From assembly GCF_015207985.1 (NCBI RefSeq), contig NZ_JADEVV010000004.1, positions 1-64,000 of the forward strand: 64,000 nt of DNA, written 5' to 3'. The notes under the pieces were generated by a model. That model saw nothing but the letters and a program-made list of their open reading frames with translations, did not search any database and was not told the DNA's origin. Origin of the DNA: Synechocystis salina LEGE 00031 (GTDB lineage: Bacteria > Cyanobacteriota > Cyanobacteriia > Cyanobacteriales > Microcystaceae). Within the stretch, counting starts at the first letter, position 1, and each line of letters begins with the position of its first letter. Positions 5,714 through 15,870 of this stretch are shown piece after piece. Made by a program: the position numbers and the translations under genes.

Positions 5714-6391
5714 ATGGAAATTCCCGTTCGCTATCAGCCTCGTCTTTTAACTCCCGAGGAAAGGGAAGGTTATCTCGATTGGTCTTTAGATTTTTTCACC
5801 GACGATCACCTATTGCAAATTCCCTATATTGACTTGACCCTACAGTTGGATGTGACCAATGCCTATGGGGTTTACCAGCGGCACAAGAGCGGCAGGGGCA
5901 GTTTTTTTGCCTTTCTCCTCTGGCATTGGATGCAGTGTTTGCAAAACCATTGGGAATTTCGGCTCCGCTATGACAACCAACAATGGTATGTGCTCGATAA
6001 TCCGCCGGCCATGGTCAGCGTGGCGATCGGGGGCAAACAACGCTTTTCGGAAATGTTGCTGGAAAATGTAGTGCAACTTAATTACAAGGAGTTTAGCGAA
6101 CTTTATAGTGAAAAATTAGCCCAAATTCGGGCTGGGCATTACCAGCGGGCTGAATATGACACCTTTTGTTTAGCTTGTATTTTTGGCAACTTGCCCAACT
6201 TGAGATTTACGGCCTTGAGCGTGCACTATCGCCGGGAAACAATCCAAGGGCAACCCTGGCTTTACTTCGGGCAACGCTATCAGAACAATGAGCGGTTATT
6301 TATTCCTCTTTGTTTTAAAATCCACCACGCCAATACGGATCCCTTGGTACTGGACCAGGCCATCAATCAATTTAAAGCTCGCTTCATTTAA
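5714..6391 (+). CDS. Chloramphenicol acetyltransferase-fold protein
   Basis: The protein has 225 residues, the usual size of a CAT monomer. Several segments match the CAT trimeric fold: FFAFLLWHWMQCLQ, VSVAIGGKQRF, and near the C-terminus IHHANTDPLVLDQAINQF. The last aligns with the CAT catalytic motif HHxxxDG, so the catalytic His is present but the Gly after Asp is replaced by Pro. That change and the chromosomal setting make chloramphenicol resistance unlikely; an acyl-CoA-dependent transferase with another substrate is more plausible. It follows the FHA gene by 60 bases on the same strand and may be cotranscribed. Confidence 0.72.
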   Translation: MEIPVRYQPRLLTPEEREGYLDWSLDFFTDDHLLQIPYIDLTLQLDVTNAYGVYQRHKSGRGSFFAFLLWHWMQCLQNHWEFRLRYDNQQWYVLDNPPAMVSVAIGGKQRFSEMLLENVVQLNYKEFSELYSEKLAQIRAGHYQRAEYDTFCLACIFGNLPNLRFTALSVHYRRETIQGQPWLYFGQRYQNNERLFIPLCFKIHHANTDPLVLDQAINQFKARFI

Positions 6392-6667: not shown

Positions 6668-9600
6668 ATGGTAAGTTCAGTCGTCGAAAAAACCTCTGTG
6701 GCCCATAAAGAAACTGCTTTAATCCTCTGGTTTGAAGAGGTGGGCACCCATGACGTTGGCTTGGTGGGGGGTAAGAATTCTTCCCTGGGGGAAATGATTC
6801 AACAGTTGACCAGCAAGGGAGTAAATGTGCCTTCTGGTTTTGCCACCACTGCCTATGCTTACCGCTATTTTATCCAAGAGGCTGGCTTAGAGCAAAAACT
6901 TCGGGATCTCTTTGCCGACCTGGACGTAAATAACATGGTCAATTTGCAGGAGAGGGGTCATCTAGCCCGGCAATTAATATTAGACACACCCTTCCCCCAA
7001 AATCTACAAGCGGCGATCGCCGAAGCCTATGGAGTCATGTGTGAGCGCTACGGTTGCAAGGTTGATTGTACTGGAGTGGATGTGGCGGTGCGCTCCAGTG
7101 CCACAGCAGAAGATTTACCGGAGGCTAGTTTTGCGGGGCAACAGGAAACCTACCTCAATGTCCACAGTCTTTCCTGTGTTTTGGAATCCTGCCATAAATG
7201 CTTTGCTTCCCTGTTCACTGACCGGGCCATTTCCTATCGGCATCACAATGGCTTTGACCATTTTGCGGTGGCTTTATCGGTGGGTGTACAAAAAATGGTG
7301 CGCTCTGATCTGGCCACTTCTGGGGTGATGTTTTCCATTGATACGGAAACTGGCTTTAAAAATGCCGCCCTAATTACCGCCGCCTATGGGTTGGGGGAAA
7401 ATGTAGTCCAGGGCGCGGTGAACCCCGATGAATATTTTGTTTTTAAACCCACTTTGAAGGAAGGTTTTAAGCCAATTTTGGAGAAACGTTTAGGCAGTAA
7501 GGCCATTAAAATGGTCTACGATGTGGGCGGTTCTAAACTGACTAAAAATGTGGAAGTGGCGGAACCGGAACGGGAAAAATATTGCATTAATGATGAAGAA
7601 ATTCTCCAATTAGCCCGTTGGGCCTGCATCATCGAAGACCACTATTCTGAAGTGCGGGGAATTTACACTCCCATGGATATTGAGTGGGCTAAGGATGGAC
7701 AAACGGGGGAATTATTCATTGTTCAGGCCCGACCAGAAACGGTGCAATCCCAAAAGTCCGCCAATGTGATTAAAACCTACGAGTTAAAGGATCACAGCCA
7801 AGTGTTAGCCACGGGGCGCAGTGTGGGGGCGGCGATCGGCCAGGGCAAAGCCCAGGTAATTCGCAATGTTTCTGAAATTAACCAGTTTCGTCCCGGCGAG
7901 GTCTTGATCACCAACCGCACCGACCCGGATTGGGAACCGATTATGAAACAGGCTTCGGCGATCGTTACTAATCAGGGGGGCCGAACCTGTTTTGCTGGAG
8001 CAACTAATATCCTGACCAATCAAGGCTTTATGAGCTTAAAGCAAATTCATACCCAGGGTTATGATGGTTTATCAACTTTGTCTTTAAATACTGAAACTCA
8101 AAAAATGGAATGGAAACCCATTTTAGACAGTATGAAACGTTCTGGAAAAATAATTGGAGTCAGTGTTTCCCAAACCGGCAAAACAGTTAATAACACCCTG
8201 CGCCTTACTCCGGATCACAAAATGGTTAATCTCCGTCAGGGGAAATATGTGAAAACTGAAATCCAGGAGATGTTAGAAAAGCGAGAAATGGTCTTGGTAT
8301 CTCAAAATATACCAATGCTGGGGGATGGAAAAAATAAAGAAGCAGATTTAGCTTATTTCCTCGGCGGCATTATCACCGATGGCTCTATCTACACCAGTCG
8401 TACCCATGGTGAAGTGCAGTTTATCCAAAAAGATGTTCCCGAAAAAGAAGCTTTCATTGCAACCATGCAAGAAAAGGCTACGGCCCTCTTTGGTAAATCT
8501 TTTACCCCCTATCCCAAAGCGGTGTCCTCTGGCTATATTCGAGGAGAAAAGGTAACAGGACAAGCCACAGCCTATCGTCTTTACTCCAAGGCGATCGCCT
8601 ATGAAGTGCAAGCAAAAGAGCAAAAGATTAGCCAAATCCTCCTAGAAAATGATGCAGAAGTTGCTTATCAATTTTTAGCAGGGGTAATTGATGGGGATGG
8701 ATGCTATGGCAATAATCGCATTAACATTTACATCTCTGAAGAAAATTTATTACAGGCAGTAATTATTGCTTGTTTGAAAATTAACACCGTTCCCCAGGTA
8801 ACTAATAATCGCCATATCCATAACGTCCAAATTGTAGAAAAAATCCCCGAAATTCTTCTCTACACCCGAAGGGTGAAAGGGGAAGTAAAACCTCGCACTA
8901 TCCAAACTCGTTTCTTTGCCACTAAACAACTGTTTGATGGAGAGGTTAAGGGACAAATTAAACTTCGTAAGGATAACAATTTCCTCATTTCTGATAAACA
9001 ACTACAGGAAATCGGTCAATTTGAGTCTTTACTCAATAGTGATCTACGGATGCAACGGGTAATACAGATGGAAGATGCCCAAACAGGGGATGTTTATAAC
9101 ATTACGGTTGCGGATCACCATAACTATGTGGTCTTTACCGAAAAATATACCCCAGTGGTGGTTTGCAATTGCCATGCTGCAATTATTGCCAGGGAAATGG
9201 GCATTCCGGCGATCGTGGGTTGTGGGGATGCTACCGACAGCATTAAAACCGGCGAAGACGTTACCATCTGTTGCTCTGAGGGAGATGAAGGCTCTGTTTA
9301 CAGCGGCATTTTGAACTACGAAGTCCACGAAACGGAATTATCTAATATTCCCCGCACCAAAACTCAAATTTTGATGAATGTGGGCAACCCAGAACAGGCC
9401 TTTGGTTTTGCCAGTTATCCCGCCGATGGTGTAGGCTTAGCCCGGTTGGAATTTATTATTGCTAATCACATTAAGGCCCATCCCCTCGCCCTGATGAAAT
9501 TTGACGAGTTGGAAGATCCCGTTGCCAAGGCAGAAATTGCCCAGTTGACCAAACTCTACGCTGGCGATCGCCCGCAGTTCTTTGTCGATAAATTGGCCCA

Positions 9601-10309
9601 TGGCATTGCCATGATTGCAGCGGCGTTCTATCCCAAACCTGTGGTGGTGCGGATGTCAGACTTCAAATCCAATGAGTACGCCAATCTCCTTGGTGGTCGT
9701 CAGTTTGAACCGAAGGAAGAAAACCCCATGATCGGCTGGCGGGGGGCCTCCCGTTACTATGACCCCAATTACCGAGAAGCCTACGCGTTGGAATGCCAAG
9801 CCCTCAAACGGGTCCGGGACGATATGGGTTTAACCAATGTTATTCCGATGATTCCTTTCTGTCGTACCCCCGACGAAGGTCGCAAAGTCATTGCGGAAAT
9901 GGCTAAACATGGCTTGAAGCAAGGGGAAAATGGCCTAGAAATTTACGTGATGTGCGAACTACCTAGCAATGTCATTCTCGCCGATGAGTTTAGCCAAGTA
10001 TTTGATGGGTTCTCCATTGGCTCCAACGATTTAACCCAATTAACCCTGGGTCTGGACCGGGATTCTTCCCTCGTTGCCCATCTATTTGATGAGCGTAATC
10101 AGGGGGTTAAACGCATGGTCAAAATGGCGATCGAAACGGCCAAAGCCAACGGTCGTAAGATCGGTATTTGTGGTCAAGCCCCTTCAGATTATCCTGAGTT
10201 CGCCGAATTTTTAGTGGAATTGGGCATCGATTCCATCAGTCTTAATCCAGATTCCGTGCTGAAAACCGTTTTACGCATTGCGGAGGTGGAAAAAGCGAAA
10301 CCTAGTTAA
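6668..10309 (+). CDS. ppsA: Phosphoenolpyruvate synthase precursor with intein
   Basis: PEP synthase converts pyruvate and ATP to PEP, AMP and phosphate for gluconeogenesis. The open frame encodes 1213 residues, but a 394-residue intein occupies 441-834, leaving a mature protein of 819 residues, normal for this family. The N-extein has the ATP-binding domain ([11 protein letters not shown] near residue 35; [21 protein letters not shown] near 140). The phosphohistidine motif is split: GGRT ends the N-extein and [11 protein letters not shown] begins the C-extein, so the catalytic His is only placed correctly after splicing. The C-terminal PEP-binding domain carries [18 protein letters not shown] and ICGQAPSD. 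An AGGGG ribosome site precedes the ATG. PCC 6803 slr0301 lacks this intein as I remember it. Confidence 0.96.
   Translation: [1213 protein letters not shown]
7988..9169 (+). mobile_element. PpsA intein with LAGLIDADG homing endonuclease
   Basis: The in-frame 1182-base insertion encodes a 394-residue intein. Intein residue 1 is Cys ([15 protein letters not shown]). The N-terminal splicing block B has the TxxH motif ([11 protein letters not shown], Thr74 and His77). The endonuclease motifs are LGGIITDGS at about 125-133 and LAGVIDGDG at about 230-238, both with their acidic residue, so homing activity may be intact. Block F is [15 protein letters not shown] at about 368-382. Block G ends VVVCN, and the +1 extein residue is Cys. 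The penultimate residue is therefore Cys instead of the usual His. The terminal Asn and both nucleophilic cysteines are intact, so splicing is expected. The insertion point is the same catalytic motif used by archaeal PEP synthase inteins (from memory). Confidence 0.95.
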
Positions 10310-10395
10310 TCAACATACCCTGAGTAGGTCTTAAATTGCTCCACTAGGCTATATTTGTACATCCTCAGTTGTTTTCACTCTGATAATTCAAATTG

Positions 10396-10434
10396 ATTAT
10401 CCTCCCCCATCTCTGATAGTGGGGGATAATTTTT
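10396..10434 (+). terminator. Probable rho-independent terminator after ppsA
   Basis: The segment starting ATTATCCTCCCCCA can pair with TGGGGGATAAT across a loop of about 10 bases, with a small bulge, and is followed by TTTTT. It lies 87 bases after the ppsA stop codon. Confidence 0.7.
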
Positions 10435-10574
10435 AAAAACAAGGTGTGGTAGGGCTTTCTGGTATCCATTGACGGTTAATTTTTTGGCTAGGGAGTAGAC
10501 TAATTATCAATCATTAGTTAACATGCAGAACTAATACCAGATGTCGATTGGTAATTCCACAGGAGAACTTAAGT

Positions 10575-11279
10575 TTGAAATTATTTGTCAAGTTGGCAAT
10601 TACCACTCTTTTAATTGCTGGATTGATATTTATTGTCCATCATTTTCAGTTAGGAAATGCGCTTAATTTGTTACTAACTAAAATTGAAAACTTAGGTTGG
10701 TGGGCTCCTTTAATTTATATCGCTGTCTACAATCTAGCCACAATTTTACTGATACCCGGTTCCTTATTAACCATGAAAGGAGGCTGTTTATTTGGTTGGT
10801 GGTGGGGCAGCATTTACACTACCATTGCCGCTATGATTGGAGCGATTATTGCTTTTTTGATTGGCCGCCACCTCTCCAGAAATTGGGTAAGGCAAAAAAT
10901 AGCAAAATATCCAAAATTTCAATTGCTCAATGTTGCGATTAAAAAAGATGGTTGGAAAATTGTTGCTTTAACTCGTCTTTCCCCCATTTTTCCGTTCAAT
11001 TTACTTAATTACGCCTTTGGGGTCACTGATGTTTGTATAAGGGATTATATCACTGGTTCTTTCGCTATGATTCCAGCTACAATTATGTACACTTACATTG
11101 GCTCATTAGCTACGGATTTAACGACCATTGGTGACAACCTTAATGGTACACCCCAATTAATTCAGTGGTTCATGCGCATTTGTGGCTTGGGGGCAACAAT
11201 ATTTTTGTTTGTTTATCTCAAGCAATGGTCAGACAAAGTTTTCCACCAAAGTCTATCTAACTTAGAATCGAAAAAGTAA
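10575..11279 (+). CDS. TVP38/TMEM64 (SNARE-associated, DedA-like) membrane protein
   Basis: This inner-membrane protein of about 234 residues has about five or six hydrophobic segments. It carries family signatures: LLIPGSLLTMKGGCLFG in the first half, the FLIGRHLSRNWVRQKI segment, and LTRLSPIFPFNLLNYAFGVT followed by IPATIMYTYIGSLA. The family is thought to act in lipid or small-solute handling at membranes; the substrate here is unknown. The frame is open from a TTG at 10548, but AGGAG at 10561-10565 sits 9 bases before an in-frame TTG at 10575, which I take as the start. It is the first gene of a plus-strand run leading into arsM and arsS and is paralogous to the gene at 13414. Confidence 0.85.
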   Translation: MKLFVKLAITTLLIAGLIFIVHHFQLGNALNLLLTKIENLGWWAPLIYIAVYNLATILLIPGSLLTMKGGCLFGWWWGSIYTTIAAMIGAIIAFLIGRHLSRNWVRQKIAKYPKFQLLNVAIKKDGWKIVALTRLSPIFPFNLLNYAFGVTDVCIRDYITGSFAMIPATIMYTYIGSLATDLTTIGDNLNGTPQLIQWFMRICGLGATIFLFVYLKQWSDKVFHQSLSNLESKK

Positions 11280-11328
11280 GTTAACACATCTAATTCAGTC
11301 ATCAAGTTTTTGTCAGCTAAAATTAACA

Positions 11329-12297
11329 ATGACCTATCTCCAAACCACTGCTGATTTTTACGCCGAAGTAGCCCAGACTCCAGAAGTGGGACTCTGTTGC
11401 GTTCAGAGTAGCCCTCTGCAACTGCCGGGCTTAGTGATTCCCCGCTCCATGCAGGAAATGAACTATGGCTGTGGTAGTACCGTTCATCCCAACGAGCTAG
11501 GTAATAATCCCAAAGTACTTTATGTCGGTGTTGGTGGTGGGCTAGAGGCACTACAATTTGCTTACTTTTGCCGTCAGCCAGGGGCCGTAATCGCAGTGGA
11601 GCCTGTAGAGGCTATGCGTCAGGCCGCTAATCGAAATTTACGGTTAGCCGCTGAAGAAAATGATTGGTTCAGTATCGATTTTGTGGATATTCGGGCAGGA
11701 GATGCCTTTGCGTTGCCGGTGGCGGATAATTCAGTAGACGTAGTTGCGCAAAATTGCTTATTTAATATTTTTGAGCCGGAAGATTTATCCCGAGCTTTGC
11801 AAGAAGCATATCGAGTTTTAAAACCCCATGGTCGTTTAATAATGAGTGATCCCATTGCTACTCGGCCTATTCCCCGACATCTGCGTCAGGATGAACGGCT
11901 CCGGGCCATGTGTTTATCCGGGGCATTGACCTATGAAGAATACACTCAGCATTTGATTGATGTCGGCTTTGGGCAAATTGAAATTCGGGCCCGTCGTCCC
12001 TACCGTTTACTTGATTCTGTTACTTATCAACTAGAGCAAAGTTTGTTGTTAGAAAGTCTTGATTCCGTTTCCTTTAAAGTCCCGATCCCCGATGACGGGG
12101 CCTGCATTTTTACTGGCAAAACTGCTATCTACGCTGGTTCAGAACCTCTATTTGATGACCAAGCTGGCCATATTCTTCAGCAGGGAGTTCCTAGTGCGGT
12201 ATGTGATAAAACAGCCTTAAAATTAGGCTCTACTTATCCAGATAAAATTCTGATCACTGACTCAACTTGGCATTATGATGGCGGTGGTTGTTGTTAA
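11329..12297 (+). CDS. arsM: ArsM-like methyltransferase of arsenosugar synthesis
   Basis: The protein is a SAM-dependent methyltransferase of 322 residues, predicted to methylate trivalent arsenic in the cytosol. The SAM-binding motif VLYVGVGGGLEALQFAY is near residue 63, and the post-motif segment FALPVADNSVDVVAQNCLFN is near 125. Likely arsenic-binding cysteines occur in GLCCVQS near residue 23, YGCGSTV near 46 and a terminal GGGCC. It lies 49 bases after the TVP38 gene and about 65 bases before a radical SAM gene of the ArsS type; that pairing is what points to arsenosugar rather than simple volatilisation. PCC 6803 ArsM is, as I recall, slr0303. Confidence 0.85.
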   Translation: MTYLQTTADFYAEVAQTPEVGLCCVQSSPLQLPGLVIPRSMQEMNYGCGSTVHPNELGNNPKVLYVGVGGGLEALQFAYFCRQPGAVIAVEPVEAMRQAANRNLRLAAEENDWFSIDFVDIRAGDAFALPVADNSVDVVAQNCLFNIFEPEDLSRALQEAYRVLKPHGRLIMSDPIATRPIPRHLRQDERLRAMCLSGALTYEEYTQHLIDVGFGQIEIRARRPYRLLDSVTYQLEQSLLLESLDSVSFKVPIPDDGACIFTGKTAIYAGSEPLFDDQAGHILQQGVPSAVCDKTALKLGSTYPDKILITDSTWHYDGGGCC

Positions 12298-12363
12298 AAT
12301 TAGTCTAATTGATCTTTGGCGATCGCCAGATTTTGCCCTCTTGTGTAGTCAACTTTGAGTAAC

Positions 12364-13374
12364 ATGGTTCAACACCTAGAAATTTCTTCACAAAAATATC
12401 CCATAACTCCCTTTGCCTCTAAGCTAACTGCTCCTTTGGATAAGCAAAAAATTTCTACTCTCCAAATCAATTTAGGTAAACGCTGTAATCTAGCCTGTAG
12501 CCATTGCCATGTAGAAGCTAGTCCCAAACGTACAGAGGAAATATCAGCGGAAGTTTGCCAACAACTAATTGAAATTATTCAAAAATTCCCCCAAATTAGG
12601 GTAGTGGATCTCACCGGGGGAGCCCCGGAAATGCTCTATGGTTTTAAGCCCATTGTGAAAGCGGCTAGAGAGATGGGAAAAGAAGTAATCGTCCGCTCCA
12701 ATTTGACTATTTATTTTGAAATGGGATTTGCAGATATTCCGGATTATTGTGCCCAGCATCAAGTGAAAATCGTGGCATCATTGCCCTGTTACCTGGAAGA
12801 TAACGTTGATAAAATGCGTGGCAATGGGGTTTATGAAAAGTCAATTAAAGCTCTGCAATGGTTAAATAAACTTGGCTATGGTAAGGATGCTAATTTAGTT
12901 CTTGATTTGGTTTATAATCCTCCTTTGCCAACTTCAGATGAATTTTCTCTGCCCCCTCCTCAGGAGCCCCTTGAACAAGATTACAAAAAATTCCTCAAAG
13001 ACCATTTTGACATTAGTTTTAATCACTTATTGACCATTACAAATTTACCCATTGGTCGAAGCAAATTCCACCTTGAAAAATATCAATTACATCAAAAATA
13101 TTTGAATTTTCTGGAAAATAATTTTAATCCAGACACAGTTGACAGTTTAATGTGCCGCAACGAACTTTCCATTGACCATTTAGGCAATGTTTATGATTGT
13201 GATTTTAATCAAATGGAAAACATTCCCGCTGAAAATAAATTCAATCAAAAGTTAACTGTTGCTGATCTAGTAAAAGCTGAAAATTTAGACTTAATTCAAA
13301 GAGTTAAAACCGCCCAGTATTGTTATGGTTGCACCGCCGGTTCTGGCTCTAGTTGTGGAGGTGCACTAATTTGA
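12364..13374 (+). CDS. arsS: ArsS-like radical SAM enzyme of arsenosugar synthesis
   Basis: The radical SAM motif CNLACSHCH (CxxxCxxC) near residue 40 binds the 4Fe-4S cluster, followed by DLTGGAPEM. The C-terminus has the family signature CYGCTAGSGSSCGGALI, a cysteine-rich segment of the radical SAM/Cys-rich (ArsS) family. ArsS is understood to join a 5'-deoxyadenosyl group to dimethylarsenite, the step committing methylated arsenic to arsenosugars. The frame opens at a TTG at 12355; the ATG three codons later is used here. No strong ribosome site is visible. The gene sits between arsM and a second TVP38 gene. Confidence 0.85.
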   Translation: MVQHLEISSQKYPITPFASKLTAPLDKQKISTLQINLGKRCNLACSHCHVEASPKRTEEISAEVCQQLIEIIQKFPQIRVVDLTGGAPEMLYGFKPIVKAAREMGKEVIVRSNLTIYFEMGFADIPDYCAQHQVKIVASLPCYLEDNVDKMRGNGVYEKSIKALQWLNKLGYGKDANLVLDLVYNPPLPTSDEFSLPPPQEPLEQDYKKFLKDHFDISFNHLLTITNLPIGRSKFHLEKYQLHQKYLNFLENNFNPDTVDSLMCRNELSIDHLGNVYDCDFNQMENIPAENKFNQKLTVADLVKAENLDLIQRVKTAQYCYGCTAGSGSSCGGALI

Positions 13375-13413
13375 TCTTAGTTAGCTTTCTCTATTTACTT
13401 CCCCCTTGATTAT

Positions 13414-14187
13414 ATGTTTATCCATTGGCTAAAAAAACAATTTTTATTTTCCCAAAGGCAGAGTTTTTACTTTTTGGTTATTTCCACTTTTAGCCTTGTC
13501 ATAATCTTTGTTGCCAGTCCGGCTCTAGCTCAGGAAACAGGCACGGGTGGCTTCAATCCCCAAAATTGGTTGCTTAATGCCCTGCAATGGATTGACGGCT
13601 TAGGCACGGCCGGGGCGATCGCCTTTATTTTGCTTTACATAGTCGCAACAGTAGCATTTCTACCAGGATCAATCTTGACCCTAGGGGCTGGGGTTGTGTT
13701 CGGAGTAGTGCTCGGTTCGGTCTATGTTTTTGTTGGAGCTACTTTGGGAGCTACGGCAGCTTTCCTGGTGGGACGCTATCTTGCCCGGGGCTGGGTGGCC
13801 AAGAAAATTGTCGGTAATCAAAAGTTCAAAGCCATTGATGAAGCGGTGGGTAAAGAAGGCCTAAAAATTGTCATTTTAACCAGACTTTCTCCAGTTTTTC
13901 CCTTTAATTTATTAAATTATGGTTATGGCATCACCGGCGTTTCTTTAAAGGATTATGTCATTGGCTCCCTCGGCATGATTCCCGGCACCATTATGTATGT
14001 TTACATTGGCTCTTTAGCTGGAAGTTTAGCCACTGTTGGCACAGAAACTAACCAAGCTAATCCCACTTTACAATGGGTAATCCGCATCATTGGCTTTATT
14101 GCCACCGTTGTCGTCACTATCTATGTCACTAAAATTGCTAGAAAGGCTTTAGATGAAGCGATTCTAACATCGGAAGTAGTTGAATAA
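13414..14187 (+). CDS. TVP38/TMEM64 membrane protein, second copy
   Basis: This 257-residue membrane protein is paralogous to the one at 10575. Shared segments include FLPGSILTLGAGVVFG, FLVGRYLARGWVAKKIV, and LTRLSPVFPFNLLNYGYGIT followed by IPGTIMYVYIGSLAG. It has an extra N-terminal hydrophobic stretch (about residues 17-40, ending SPALAQE) that looks like a signal or anchor segment and is missing in the first copy. It follows arsS by 39 bases and precedes the flavoenzyme by 126 bases. A role in arsenosugar or membrane-lipid handling is inferred only from context. Confidence 0.85.
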   Translation: MFIHWLKKQFLFSQRQSFYFLVISTFSLVIIFVASPALAQETGTGGFNPQNWLLNALQWIDGLGTAGAIAFILLYIVATVAFLPGSILTLGAGVVFGVVLGSVYVFVGATLGATAAFLVGRYLARGWVAKKIVGNQKFKAIDEAVGKEGLKIVILTRLSPVFPFNLLNYGYGITGVSLKDYVIGSLGMIPGTIMYVYIGSLAGSLATVGTETNQANPTLQWVIRIIGFIATVVVTIYVTKIARKALDEAILTSEVVE

Positions 14188-14313
14188 CAGTTTGTTTTTG
14201 AATTATTGTTCAGGAATCTTTTTCAAATTAAATTGATAATTTAGAAATAATTTTGGTTTTTAATGTGATGTTTATTTCAATTTCAAATAATTTTTTGTTA
14301 CACAATTATCCCT

Positions 14314-15870
14314 ATGAATAACCGCACTACATCTAGTATTGACATTACCCCCCTAGATGAATATAACCAGCAATTATTAGCCCATGTTCATCCCCCCGAT
14401 TGGATCAATCCTGCTCCCAAAGCTCAATATGATCTAGTGGTTATTGGTGCAGGAACTGCCGGTTTAGTGGTGGCGGCCGGGGCGGCTGGTTTAGGCATTG
14501 GTCTCAAAGTCGCCCTAATTGAAAAGCATTTGATGGGAGGTGATTGCCTCAATGTGGGATGCATTCCATCCAAGGCCTTAATTAGCTCGGCCCGCGTGGT
14601 AGGAATAATGAATAATGCCGACAGTTTGGGCGTTAAAAAACCAGACAATATTGAAGTTGATTTTCCGGCCGTGATGGCCAGAATGCGCCAAATTCGGGCT
14701 GGTATTAGCCACCATGATTCTGCCCAAAGATTTCGGGATTTAGGCATTGATGTTTTTCTTGGACAAGGACATTTTTTGCGTAACAATAAAATTGAGGTAG
14801 GGGAAACTATTCTTAATTACAAAAAAGCTGTAATCGCCACTGGAGCTAGGGCGGTAAAACCTGACATTCCCGGTATAGAAGAAGTCGGATTTTTAACTAA
14901 TGAAACAGTATTTTCTTTAACGAAATGTCCCGATCGCCTGGCGGTTATTGGCGGTGGCCCCATTGGCTGTGAGCTAGCCCAAGCCTTTCAGCGGTTGGGA
15001 GCAAGGGTGACTCTGCTTCATCGAGGTGACCATTTATTAAACAAAGAAGATCCAGAAGCTGCGGAAATTGTTCAACAATCCTTACTTAAAGATGGCATTA
15101 AACTAGTTTTAAATGTCAAATTAGAACGGGCAGAGTTCACAGAAAATGGTAAGGTTTTACACTACAGCAATAACGGTGAATTAGGTTCCGTTATCGTCGA
15201 TGAAATTCTAGTTGGTGCAGGGCGAGCCCCCAATGTGGAGGGATTAAATTTAGAGGCTGTGGGGGTAAAATTCGATCACCGGGGCGTGAAAGTGAACGAT
15301 TATTTGCAAACCACCAATCCACAAATTTATGCCGCCGGGGATATTTGTATGGACTGGAAATTCACCCATGCCGCCGATGCTGCCGCTCGCATTGTGATTA
15401 AAAATACTCTCTTTTCTCCCTTCGGTTTAGGACGTAGTAAATTAAGTCATTTAACCATGCCTTGGGTGACCTACACTGACCCAGAAATTGCCCACGTAGG
15501 ACTAAATGAAACTACCGCCGATGCTTTAGACCTAGGCTATAAAACTATTAAAATTCCCTTCTCCCAGGTTGACCGGGCGATCGCCGCCGGAGAGACGGAG
15601 GGCTTTTTGAAAATTATTCACATAGCCAACAGCGATGAAATTTTAGGCGCCACCATTGTCGCTCCCCACGCAGGGGAAATGATCTCAGAAATAACCACAG
15701 CCATGGTCAATAAAATTGGTTTGAGTAAATTGTCTGGTGTTATTCATCCCTACCCTACCCAAGCGGAAGCAATTAAAAAAGCTGCTGATACTTATCGTCG
15801 TACTTTGCTCACGAATAATACGAAAAATTTATTAAAAATTCTAGCTAAATTTCCCAGCAAATTATTCTAA
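14314..15870 (+). CDS. Mercuric-reductase-like FAD disulfide oxidoreductase
   Basis: The protein belongs to the class I pyridine nucleotide-disulfide oxidoreductases. The FAD-binding motif VVIGAGTAGLVVAAGA lies near residue 45 and the redox-active pair GGDCLNVGCIPSK near 80. The NAD(P)H-binding motif VIGGGPIGCELAQAF is near 212, and YAAGDICM is near 345. The C-terminal dimer domain has HPYPTQAEAIKKAAD, whose first His-Pro aligns with the catalytic base. It has neither the N-terminal heavy-metal domain nor a C-terminal Cys pair of true mercuric reductase, so the electrophile it reduces is unknown. An N-terminal extension of about 30 residues is unusual. Its position suggests it belongs with the arsenic genes. 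Confidence 0.85.
   Translation: MNNRTTSSIDITPLDEYNQQLLAHVHPPDWINPAPKAQYDLVVIGAGTAGLVVAAGAAGLGIGLKVALIEKHLMGGDCLNVGCIPSKALISSARVVGIMNNADSLGVKKPDNIEVDFPAVMARMRQIRAGISHHDSAQRFRDLGIDVFLGQGHFLRNNKIEVGETILNYKKAVIATGARAVKPDIPGIEEVGFLTNETVFSLTKCPDRLAVIGGGPIGCELAQAFQRLGARVTLLHRGDHLLNKEDPEAAEIVQQSLLKDGIKLVLNVKLERAEFTENGKVLHYSNNGELGSVIVDEILVGAGRAPNVEGLNLEAVGVKFDHRGVKVNDYLQTTNPQIYAAGDICMDWKFTHAADAAARIVIKNTLFSPFGLGRSKLSHLTMPWVTYTDPEIAHVGLNETTADALDLGYKTIKIPFSQVDRAIAAGETEGFLKIIHIANSDEILGATIVAPHAGEMISEITTAMVNKIGLSKLSGVIHPYPTQAEAIKKAADTYRRTLLTNNTKNLLKILAKFPSKLF

Follow-up and report, generated by a model that had tools for sequence, protein, structure and literature searches.

Recurrent association of the arsenosugar gene arsS with TVP38-type membrane proteins and a MerA-like flavoenzyme, as seen from a five-gene run in Synechocystis salina

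Results

Layout of the gene run

The window analysed here, a stretch of 64,000 nucleotides from Synechocystis salina LEGE 00031, carries at positions 10575 to 15870 a run of five intact genes on the + strand, in the order TVP38-a, ArsM, ArsS, TVP38-b and a MerA-like FAD oxidoreductase, each with profile matches and located where the first-pass annotation had placed it. The intergenic gaps measure, from 5' to 3', 49, 57, 39 and 126 bp, with 57 bp applying to an ArsS start at the TTG in position 12355. Since the relative at a same-genus locus (L320) opens with a matching ATG, ArsS probably starts at ATG 12364 instead, and the gap to ArsM is then 66 bp. A terminator-like hairpin after ppsA (10403 to 10426, + strand; a run of T after an 8-bp stem, 5 of whose pairs are G-C) is a possible upstream limit of the run, between ppsA and TVP38-a; such sites are, however, no more frequent in this region than in its shuffles (5 found, 6.4 expected), and a promoter scan of the region was uninformative (11 sites, 14.1 expected).

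ArsM and ArsS

ArsM converts arsenite to dimethylarsenic by methylation, and a 5'-deoxyadenosyl group is attached by ArsS. Beyond its first two enzymes, the arsenosugar/arsenolipid pathway is not known to have characterised members, and no TVP38 or MerA-like enzyme is known to belong to it. In the window, ArsM (11329 to 12297, + strand) is an arsenosugar-type arsenite methyltransferase that reaches 589 bits against NF038099 (cut-off 400; profile positions 1-321 of 321 covered), and ArsS (12364 to 13374, + strand) reaches 424 bits against TIGR04167 (cut-off 300; 2-303 of 303), with the domains PF04055 (radical SAM) and PF12345 (DUF3641). Both enzymes, (nearly) full-length and well above curated cut-offs, correspond to the known ArsM-ArsS pathway, whereas the TVP38 and MerA-like genes that flank them do not. 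By family membership, the ArsS of the window is a putative dimethylarsenite adenosylation enzyme. According to passages of one source, arsM of Synechocystis is slr0303 and was not induced by arsenic in one genome-wide expression study (PMC4010505), a point against the reading of the run favoured below.

The FAD enzyme

The last gene (14314 to 15870, + strand) encodes a FAD/NAD(P) disulfide oxidoreductase that matches NF004991 with 846 bits (cut-off 620). Its description as a mercuric-reductase-like enzyme without a heavy-metal domain holds, as no heavy-metal-associated domain is among its 11 Pfam matches. The Cys-x4-Cys redox pair is found in 78/78 FAD-family sequences, and Tyr stands at position 480 in all 77 that have a residue there. 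Dihydrolipoamide dehydrogenase and glutathione reductase possess at this place the catalytic His of a His-Glu dyad, as do 2eq6 and 1ebd at the aligned site, and differ from the FAD family in that this His is replaced by Tyr. MerA, in turn, is characterised by a C-terminal vicinal Cys pair, whereas CC occurs in the last 40 residues of 0/78 FAD-family sequences; together with a score below the cut-off of the MerA model (TIGR02053, 395 bits versus 454), this rules out a true mercuric reductase. What the enzyme shares with MerA, including the MerA-like Slr1849, is the sequence family, the Cys-x4-Cys pair and a Tyr where the disulfide reductases have His, the likeness to Slr1849 being one at family level and not that of an established orthologue. 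The predicted structure of the FAD enzyme, built from 4 sequences only (pLDDT 48.7), was set aside as evidence.

The TVP38 proteins

TVP38-a (10575 to 11279, + strand, TTG start) and TVP38-b (13414 to 14187, + strand) exceed the PF09335 gathering score of 33.9 with 96.4 and 104.2 bits, respectively, which places both in the VTT/DedA superfamily; the paralogy suggested for them is borne out by 45% identity over 195 residues. The genome of the window holds 4 TVP38 genes. In a tree from which 25 of 118 sequences had been removed as near-copies, and which was built without the two other TVP38 loci of this genome, TVP38-a groups with the TVP proteins that come first in TVP-TVP-FAD tandems (SH-aLRT 98), and loci survey and tree agree that its relatives normally stand before TVP38-b in such a tandem.

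The COG0398 subfamily of DedA proteins is described, in the parts of PMC10127716 concerned, as lacking an acidic residue at the first re-entrant tip, as scramblase-like in presumed function and without the residues tied to proton-driven transport, and as of unsettled function in bacteria. Neither TVP38-a nor TVP38-b has Asp or Glu in its PGS...FG stretch, a candidate position for the re-entrant tip. A Foldseek search of the PDB with the predicted TVP38-b structure (pLDDT 80) returned nothing at E 0.001 or better, and a PDB sequence search gave a single match (E 0.65); a role of the TVP38 proteins as TMEM41B/VMP1-like phospholipid scramblases is putative.

Neighbourhood of ArsS across genomes

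Among the close same-strand neighbours of ArsS in 88 cyanobacterial genomes, ArsM ranks first (9 taxonomic families) and TVP38 second (6); in this unlabelled ranking, TVP38 stands ahead of the clusters whose representative sequences hit TIGR04169 and TIGR04282/04283. A same-strand TVP38 lies within 500 bp of ArsS in 15/88 genomes (6 families) and a same-strand FAD gene within 6 kb in 8/88 (7 families), with about 0.1 expected in either case, assuming 4 TVP38 genes per genome, as in that of the window, and one FAD gene. That unrelated genes came together here by chance is therefore highly improbable: ArsS and TVP38-b do stand apart in two genomes of the same genus (G062 and G118), but the association recurs with altered gene order in several families as well as in Proteobacteria, with a Poisson probability of about 2e-9 for ArsS-TVP38 when each taxonomic family is counted once. 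ArsS and the FAD enzyme also co-occur across genomes (66/22/6/23, P 3e-7; by genus, P 0.0015).

These distance counts, like those for FAD-TVP38, derive from six-frame profile hits, other gene calls being simple open frames; the TVP38 and FAD profiles were seeded from members adjoining ArsS or FAD and then widened, so that distant TVP38 may escape, and the cut-offs of the purpose-built profiles were our choice. The initial set of ArsS loci (the best 80 of 268) leans towards near relatives of the ArsS of the window, and no rates were drawn from it. A set of repeated FAD regions (L120-L149) was excluded from the tree, the neighbour counts and the active-site survey. In the hit tables per class, every match above cut-off precedes the weaker ones, which are listed to a limited depth.

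A lack of co-occurrence, which would have refuted the first-pass reading, was not observed: TVP38 and the FAD family recur beside ArsS in multiple cyanobacterial families as well as two Proteobacteria. The same gene families recur in other orders, among others on a Pseudanabaena plasmid, and runs of all five exist elsewhere with changed gene order. The same-genus locus L320 reads ArsM-ArsS-TVP38-b-FAD and a Cupriavidus locus ArsS-FAD-TVP38-glycosyltransferase, while in Acinetobacter a single fused TVP38-FAD gene begins 1 bp after arsS and is followed by DUF547, TIGR04283, TIGR04282 and a methyltransferase. The association is far from general: 72/88 ArsS genomes have no same-strand TVP38 within 6 kb of ArsS, although a few may be hidden by short flanks, as the sequence on one side is shorter than 6 kb for 22 of the 91 ArsS genes and shorter than 500 bp for 4. 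On plasmids of Burkholderia glumae, Thiodictyon and Hymenobacter, annotation and profiles reveal neither TVP38 nor FAD within 6-8 kb of arsS.

TVP38-FAD as a module of its own

Of the 72 genomes with a FAD gene, 41 have TVP38 at most 500 bp upstream of it; the two are within 500 bp of each other in 42/72 genomes from 19 families, never on opposite strands. The TVP38 clade, for which a limit of about 200 bits was set by visual inspection and to which one hit truncated at a contig end (G026) was added, tracks FAD (P 8e-8) more tightly than ArsS (P 0.012). Six genomes have FAD without ArsS, four of them with TVP38 directly before FAD (G002, G009, G026 and G054; loci L256, L276, L254 and L300), and 13 genomes with the TVP38 clade have no ArsS. 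Conversely, the clade is missing, at about 200 bits, in 24/88 ArsS genomes, including all 10 genomes of one family (f7), which have weaker TVP38 matches only. This excludes an obligatory arsenosugar partner and, together with the TVP38-FAD pairs without ArsS, means that TVP38-FAD is not exclusive to arsenosugars. TVP38-FAD fusions also exist in plasmid clusters without arsS, and in 3 of 4 such plasmids examined the fused gene and a CDP-alcohol phosphatidyltransferase gene share one gene run.

A fused TVP38/TMEM64-FAD oxidoreductase of Proteobacteria, consisting of COG0398 with PF07992 and PF02852, is described in a passage of PMC10127716, the main text of which contains 'arsen' 0 times. Its two parts match the neighbouring TVP38-b and FAD genes of the window, whereas TVP38 and FAD are separate genes in the surveyed cyanobacteria. 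The upstream pairing, the Acinetobacter fusion and the recurrence in other orders make TVP38-FAD look like an old two-part module that was joined to ArsS repeatedly.

Discussion

That ArsS, TVP38 and FAD keep company far above chance suggests that arsenic metabolism includes steps not yet studied. Among the literature matches listed, none connects ArsS with TVP38 or with the FAD enzyme. From our point of view, the run is an arsenosugar cluster that has acquired a pre-existing module of TVP38 and MerA-like flavoenzyme, a reading to which, including the mechanism outlined below, we assign a probability of about one half. The first-pass annotation had described ArsM and ArsS as bracketed by two TVP38 proteins. 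The recurring gene company and the flanking positions stand, but the bracket needs correction: as TVP38-b and FAD form a pair of their own and relatives of TVP38-a normally precede TVP38-b, the most suitable reading is that ArsM and ArsS have been inserted into a TVP-TVP-FAD tandem.

The association itself is observed; the biochemical steps that we infer for the three extra genes are as follows. The FAD enzyme would be docked at the membrane by TVP38-b, would spend NAD(P)H via its Cys-x4-Cys pair and would maintain, for dimethylarsenic or its thiol partner, the trivalent or reduced state on which ArsS depends. The TVP38 proteins would act as scramblase-like membrane partners that anchor the enzyme and/or equilibrate arsenosugar lipids. 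The roles in reduction, lipid transfer or membrane transfer proposed earlier for these genes would fit.

One could also imagine that TVP38-FAD is a general membrane redox/lipid module for oxidative or metal stress, which shares the stress neighbourhood of arsM-arsS without any arsenosugar role. The partial independence from ArsS and the closer tie of TVP38 to FAD argue for this, as do the arsS-less fusions that occur alongside genes for ABC transporters and CDP-alcohol phosphatidyltransferases, the reduction of Hg(II) and uranyl by the MerA-like Slr1849 of Synechocystis, as stated in part of a review (PMC4307280), and a link of COG0398 to aerobic metabolism drawn in a passage of PMC10127716. 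A module of this kind would, however, not be expected beside ArsS ahead of the named arsenosugar partners, and in Acinetobacter the fusion sits between arsS and arsenosugar glycosyltransferases. We regard it as a real possibility, albeit not the probable one.

Less likely still, TVP38 could be an exporter or flippase of an arsenical (arsenosugar or methylarsenic), with the FAD enzyme supplying the carried form. In Microcoleus-type loci, ArsS-TVP38 indeed follows a series read as arsR, aquaporin, arsH and arsC, and DedA-family proteins are connected with indium extrusion and selenite in passages of PMC8679861; the scramblase-like character of COG0398 and its missing proton-driven transport residues speak against it.

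The recurrent link of the arsenosugar/arsenolipid pathway to the COG0398 DedA proteins supplies candidate genes for its missing steps; for these widely conserved membrane proteins, it also suggests a function that can be put to the test. In this context, the Tvp38/DedA protein Slr0305 of Synechocystis PCC 6803 deserves attention. It is a probable relative of TVP38-b, judged by gene context rather than sequence comparison, because L320 has the order ArsM-ArsS-TVP38-b-FAD and arsM is slr0303. The published roles of Slr0305 differ, as it has been treated for vesicle or thylakoid functions (PMC3836016, PMC13174344), with arsenic absent in the passages concerned. The ArsS link offers a competing reading for this protein, a thylakoid-emergence candidate in a 2026 preprint (PMC13174344). 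One could go further and speculate that TVP38 joins the MerA-like flavoenzyme in a membrane-bound complex for arsenic reduction and lipid handling that performs the missing steps from ArsS to arsenosugar phospholipids, and that Slr0305-type proteins are retained largely owing to arsenic metabolism and not to thylakoid building; we consider this extended version rather doubtful.

Lastly, the arsenosugar-associated NCBIfam families TIGR04282, TIGR04283 and TIGR04169 are recurrent ArsS neighbours as well, and the first two occur together with TVP38-FAD in Acinetobacter, whereas all three are absent from the run in the window. A TIGR04283 gene of the genome sits on another contig (C74).

Structure and probable origin of the gene run

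ArsM and ArsS, the arsenosugar methyltransferase and radical SAM enzyme, had been described in the first-pass annotation as flanked on each side by a TVP38/TMEM64 membrane protein gene and followed by a FAD enzyme gene, and this arrangement is seen as five intact plus-strand genes at 10575-15870, in the order TVP38-a, ArsM, ArsS, TVP38-b and a FAD-dependent pyridine nucleotide-disulfide oxidoreductase, with intergenic gaps of 49, 57, 39 and 126 bp. A terminator-like hairpin (10403-10426) lies between the run and ppsA on its 5' side, and an opposite-strand open frame is found 66 bp away on its 3' side. Both curated arsenosugar models, NF038099 (ArsM) and TIGR04167 (ArsS), were passed easily, while the FAD enzyme passed NF004991 and did not pass the mercuric reductase model. 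TVP38-a and TVP38-b, which are two of four VTT-domain genes in the genome, share 45% identity across 195 residues.

A tree of 93 sequences of the TVP38 family, built by a quick method whose program flags long branches, places TVP38-a in a clade of 7 rows (SH-aLRT 98) that also holds the leading TVP38 of TVP-TVP-FAD tandems (loci L008, L195, L239, L240 and L253) and the lone TVP38 of L035, and TVP38-b in a clade of 36 rows (SH-aLRT 99) that represents the second, FAD-side TVP38. As such, the TVP38 pair does stand on both flanks of ArsM-ArsS, but the run is best read, from these sequence groupings, as an ArsM-ArsS pair set within a TVP-TVP-FAD tandem. In the tree, TVP38 proteins linked to ArsS and those linked to FAD are intermixed (the ArsS-only group shows 12 label changes versus 26.9 in shuffles, at least 9 of the 12 being forced by starred branches), so the ArsS link was gained or lost several times.

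At nine further loci (L159, L163, L190, L193, L198, L201, L015, L046 and L082) two TVP38 genes come after ArsS and no FAD gene adjoins them; the two belong to different clades in 8/9 loci, with L201 outside the tree. Upstream in the window, the PEP synthase gene ppsA (6668-10309) carries an in-frame intein-like insert (residues ~444-833), which matches PF14890 with 33.5 bits, slightly below the cut-off of 35.8, and LAGLIDADG_3 weakly, and the other four searched genomes of the genus match only on its two flanks. A 225-residue protein at 5714-6391 weakly resembles chloramphenicol acetyltransferase (32.8 bits to PF00302, whose cut-off is 23.5, and 39 bits to NCBIfam CatA, whose cut-off is 270).

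Recurrence of the linkage

Among 117 evenly drawn Cyanobacteriia genomes, ArsS was above cut-off in 88, and all genes surrounding the 91 ArsS genes of these genomes were clustered without prior labels. Within 1.5 kb and on the same strand, the top neighbour was ArsM (15 genomes, 9 taxonomic families), followed by TVP38 (15 genomes, 6 families), an AhpD-like cluster (9 genomes, 5 families), represented by a protein that matches TIGR04169, 'arsenosugar biosynthesis-associated peroxidase-like', and a glycosyltransferase (GT) cluster (6 genomes, 4 families), whose representative matches TIGR04282 and TIGR04283. All remaining clusters reached at most 2 families each, including the FAD family (2 families, 3 genomes). 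By recurrence, TVP38 thus ranks above two partners already named by NCBI, the AhpD-like protein and the GT.

A six-frame profile search bore out the co-occurrence that the first-pass annotation had proposed to check: in 15/88 genomes (6 families) ArsS has a same-strand TVP38 at a distance of up to 500 bp, and in 16/88 (7 families) at up to 6 kb; a FAD gene lies within 6 kb in 8/88 (7 families), and the known partner ArsM within 3 kb in 14 of the 88. By chance, ~0.1 genomes would be expected for ArsS-TVP38 within 500 bp and likewise ~0.1 for ArsS-FAD within 6 kb. On the opposite strand, TVP38 and FAD occur within 6.5 kb of ArsS in one genome only (G023).

The order of the genes varies. Within the genus, G119 (L319) repeats the order of this run and G117 (L320) has ArsM-ArsS-TVP-FAD. 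TVP-FAD-ArsM-TVP-ArsS is found in G037 and also on a plasmid of Pseudanabaena galeata with an ArsS ~40% identical to that of the window; in loci L119 and L237, which both hold this order, a sensor kinase/response regulator gene pair lies directly 5' of the run. Further orders, with x for other genes, are ArsM-ArsS-GT-TVP-FAD (L035), ArsM-ArsS-GT-x-TVP-TVP-x-FAD (G036) and FAD-x-x-DUF547-ArsM-TVP-ArsS (G006), and four genomes (G066, G078, G079 and G107) combine ArsS, GT and FAD without TVP38. In Microcoleus-type loci, a series read from translated clusters as arsR-aquaporin-arsH-arsC precedes ArsS-TVP38. Outside the cyanobacteria, profiles on an unannotated Cupriavidus record gave ArsS-FAD-TVP38-glycosyltransferase, and in Acinetobacter portensis arsS is followed 1 bp on by a fused TVP38-FAD gene, then DUF547, TIGR04283, TIGR04282 and a methyltransferase. 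Functional partners would be expected to keep the same company while the order changes, as is seen here, and we assign a probability of about 0.8 to the narrower claim that, in organisms where the genes are linked, TVP38-FAD and ArsS are partners in function.

TVP38-FAD linkage beyond ArsS

The FAD gene has its own partner in TVP38. FAD was above cut-off in 72/117 genomes, and 42 of these 72 (19 families) carry a same-strand TVP38 within 500 bp, upstream in 41; no opposite-strand TVP38 was found within this distance in any of the 72. When the genes within 1.5 kb of FAD were ranked without labels, TVP38 reached 20 families (43 genomes) and GT 4, while ArsM, ArsS and two more clusters had 2 families apiece. 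TVP38 and FAD frequently form a single protein in Proteobacteria, COG0398 fusions with a FAD oxidoreductase were reported in 2023 (PMC10127716), and 22 of the 40 plasmid matches listed, out of at least 5000, are annotated as such fusions.

Presence and absence were compared across the genomes, with P values that do not allow fully for kinship. ArsS and FAD are both present in 66 genomes, ArsS only in 22, FAD only in 6 and neither in 23 (P 3e-7; by genus 47/16/2/8, P 0.0015). The corresponding counts are 61/16/11/29 for the TVP38-b clade and FAD (P 8e-8) and 64/13/24/16 for the clade and ArsS (P 0.012), i.e., the clade tracks FAD more closely than ArsS.

Several findings speak against a role in arsenic metabolism only. 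Among the 88 ArsS genomes, 24 are without the TVP38-b clade and 22 without FAD above cut-off; conversely, 13 genomes have the clade without ArsS (7 of them also without FAD above cut-off), and in four ArsS-free genomes (L254, L256, L276 and L300) TVP38 lies immediately 5' of FAD. On Klebsiella, Pseudoalteromonas and Pseudooceanicola plasmids, none of which is among the 57 records with an ArsS match, the fused gene shares its run with genes for a CDP-alcohol phosphatidyltransferase and an ABC transporter, and the phosphatidyltransferase hints at a possible lipid role; an Edwardsiella plasmid has the fusion without these two neighbours. In the stretches examined of two further plasmids, from Variovorax and Acidiphilium, the FAD gene is present but both ArsS and TVP38 are absent, and within 6-8 kb of arsS on Burkholderia glumae, Thiodictyon and Hymenobacter plasmids no gene for either TVP38 or FAD is seen.

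Possible mechanism

Cys-x4-Cys is present in 78/78 FAD-family sequences, and where dihydrolipoamide dehydrogenase has the His of its His-Glu dyad, 77/77 carry Tyr, as does MerA in a PDB alignment; a C-terminal Cys pair occurs in 0 of 78. The family hence shares a MerA-like redox core from which the mercury-capturing parts are missing, and judged by these residues the core would fit reduction of another soft metalloid or of a thiol adduct. ArsM methylates arsenic (PMC4010505), and the radical SAM enzyme adenosylates in oxo-arsenosugar synthesis according to a review (PMC12159101). Beyond the genes, their families and the repeated linkage, which are observed, the FAD enzyme is inferred to act as a reductase near the membrane with TVP38 as a scramblase-like partner; this mechanism as a whole, linkage and ArsM/ArsS chemistry included, we hold to be roughly an even bet. 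Titles, abstract openings and term counts of the papers listed yielded no report joining ArsS or arsenosugars to TVP38 or the FAD enzyme, which is weak evidence of absence as most subscription journals were out of reach. Slr0305 has been described as a membrane or thylakoid factor (PMC3836016, PMC13174344, PMC9950537); judged by how the genes are ordered in L320 and by the adjacent number that arsM bears (slr0303), it may correspond to TVP38-b.

Beside ArsM-ArsS in L229, a single protein (10220-11539) fuses TIGR04282 (233 bits) and TIGR04283 (274 bits). Acinetobacter, Cupriavidus and B. glumae plasmids (L116, L115 and L117) have, at most ~8 kb from arsS, a methylthioadenosine phosphorylase gene of the MtnP type, whose product could cleave an adenosyl arsenical to a ribose-1-phosphate.
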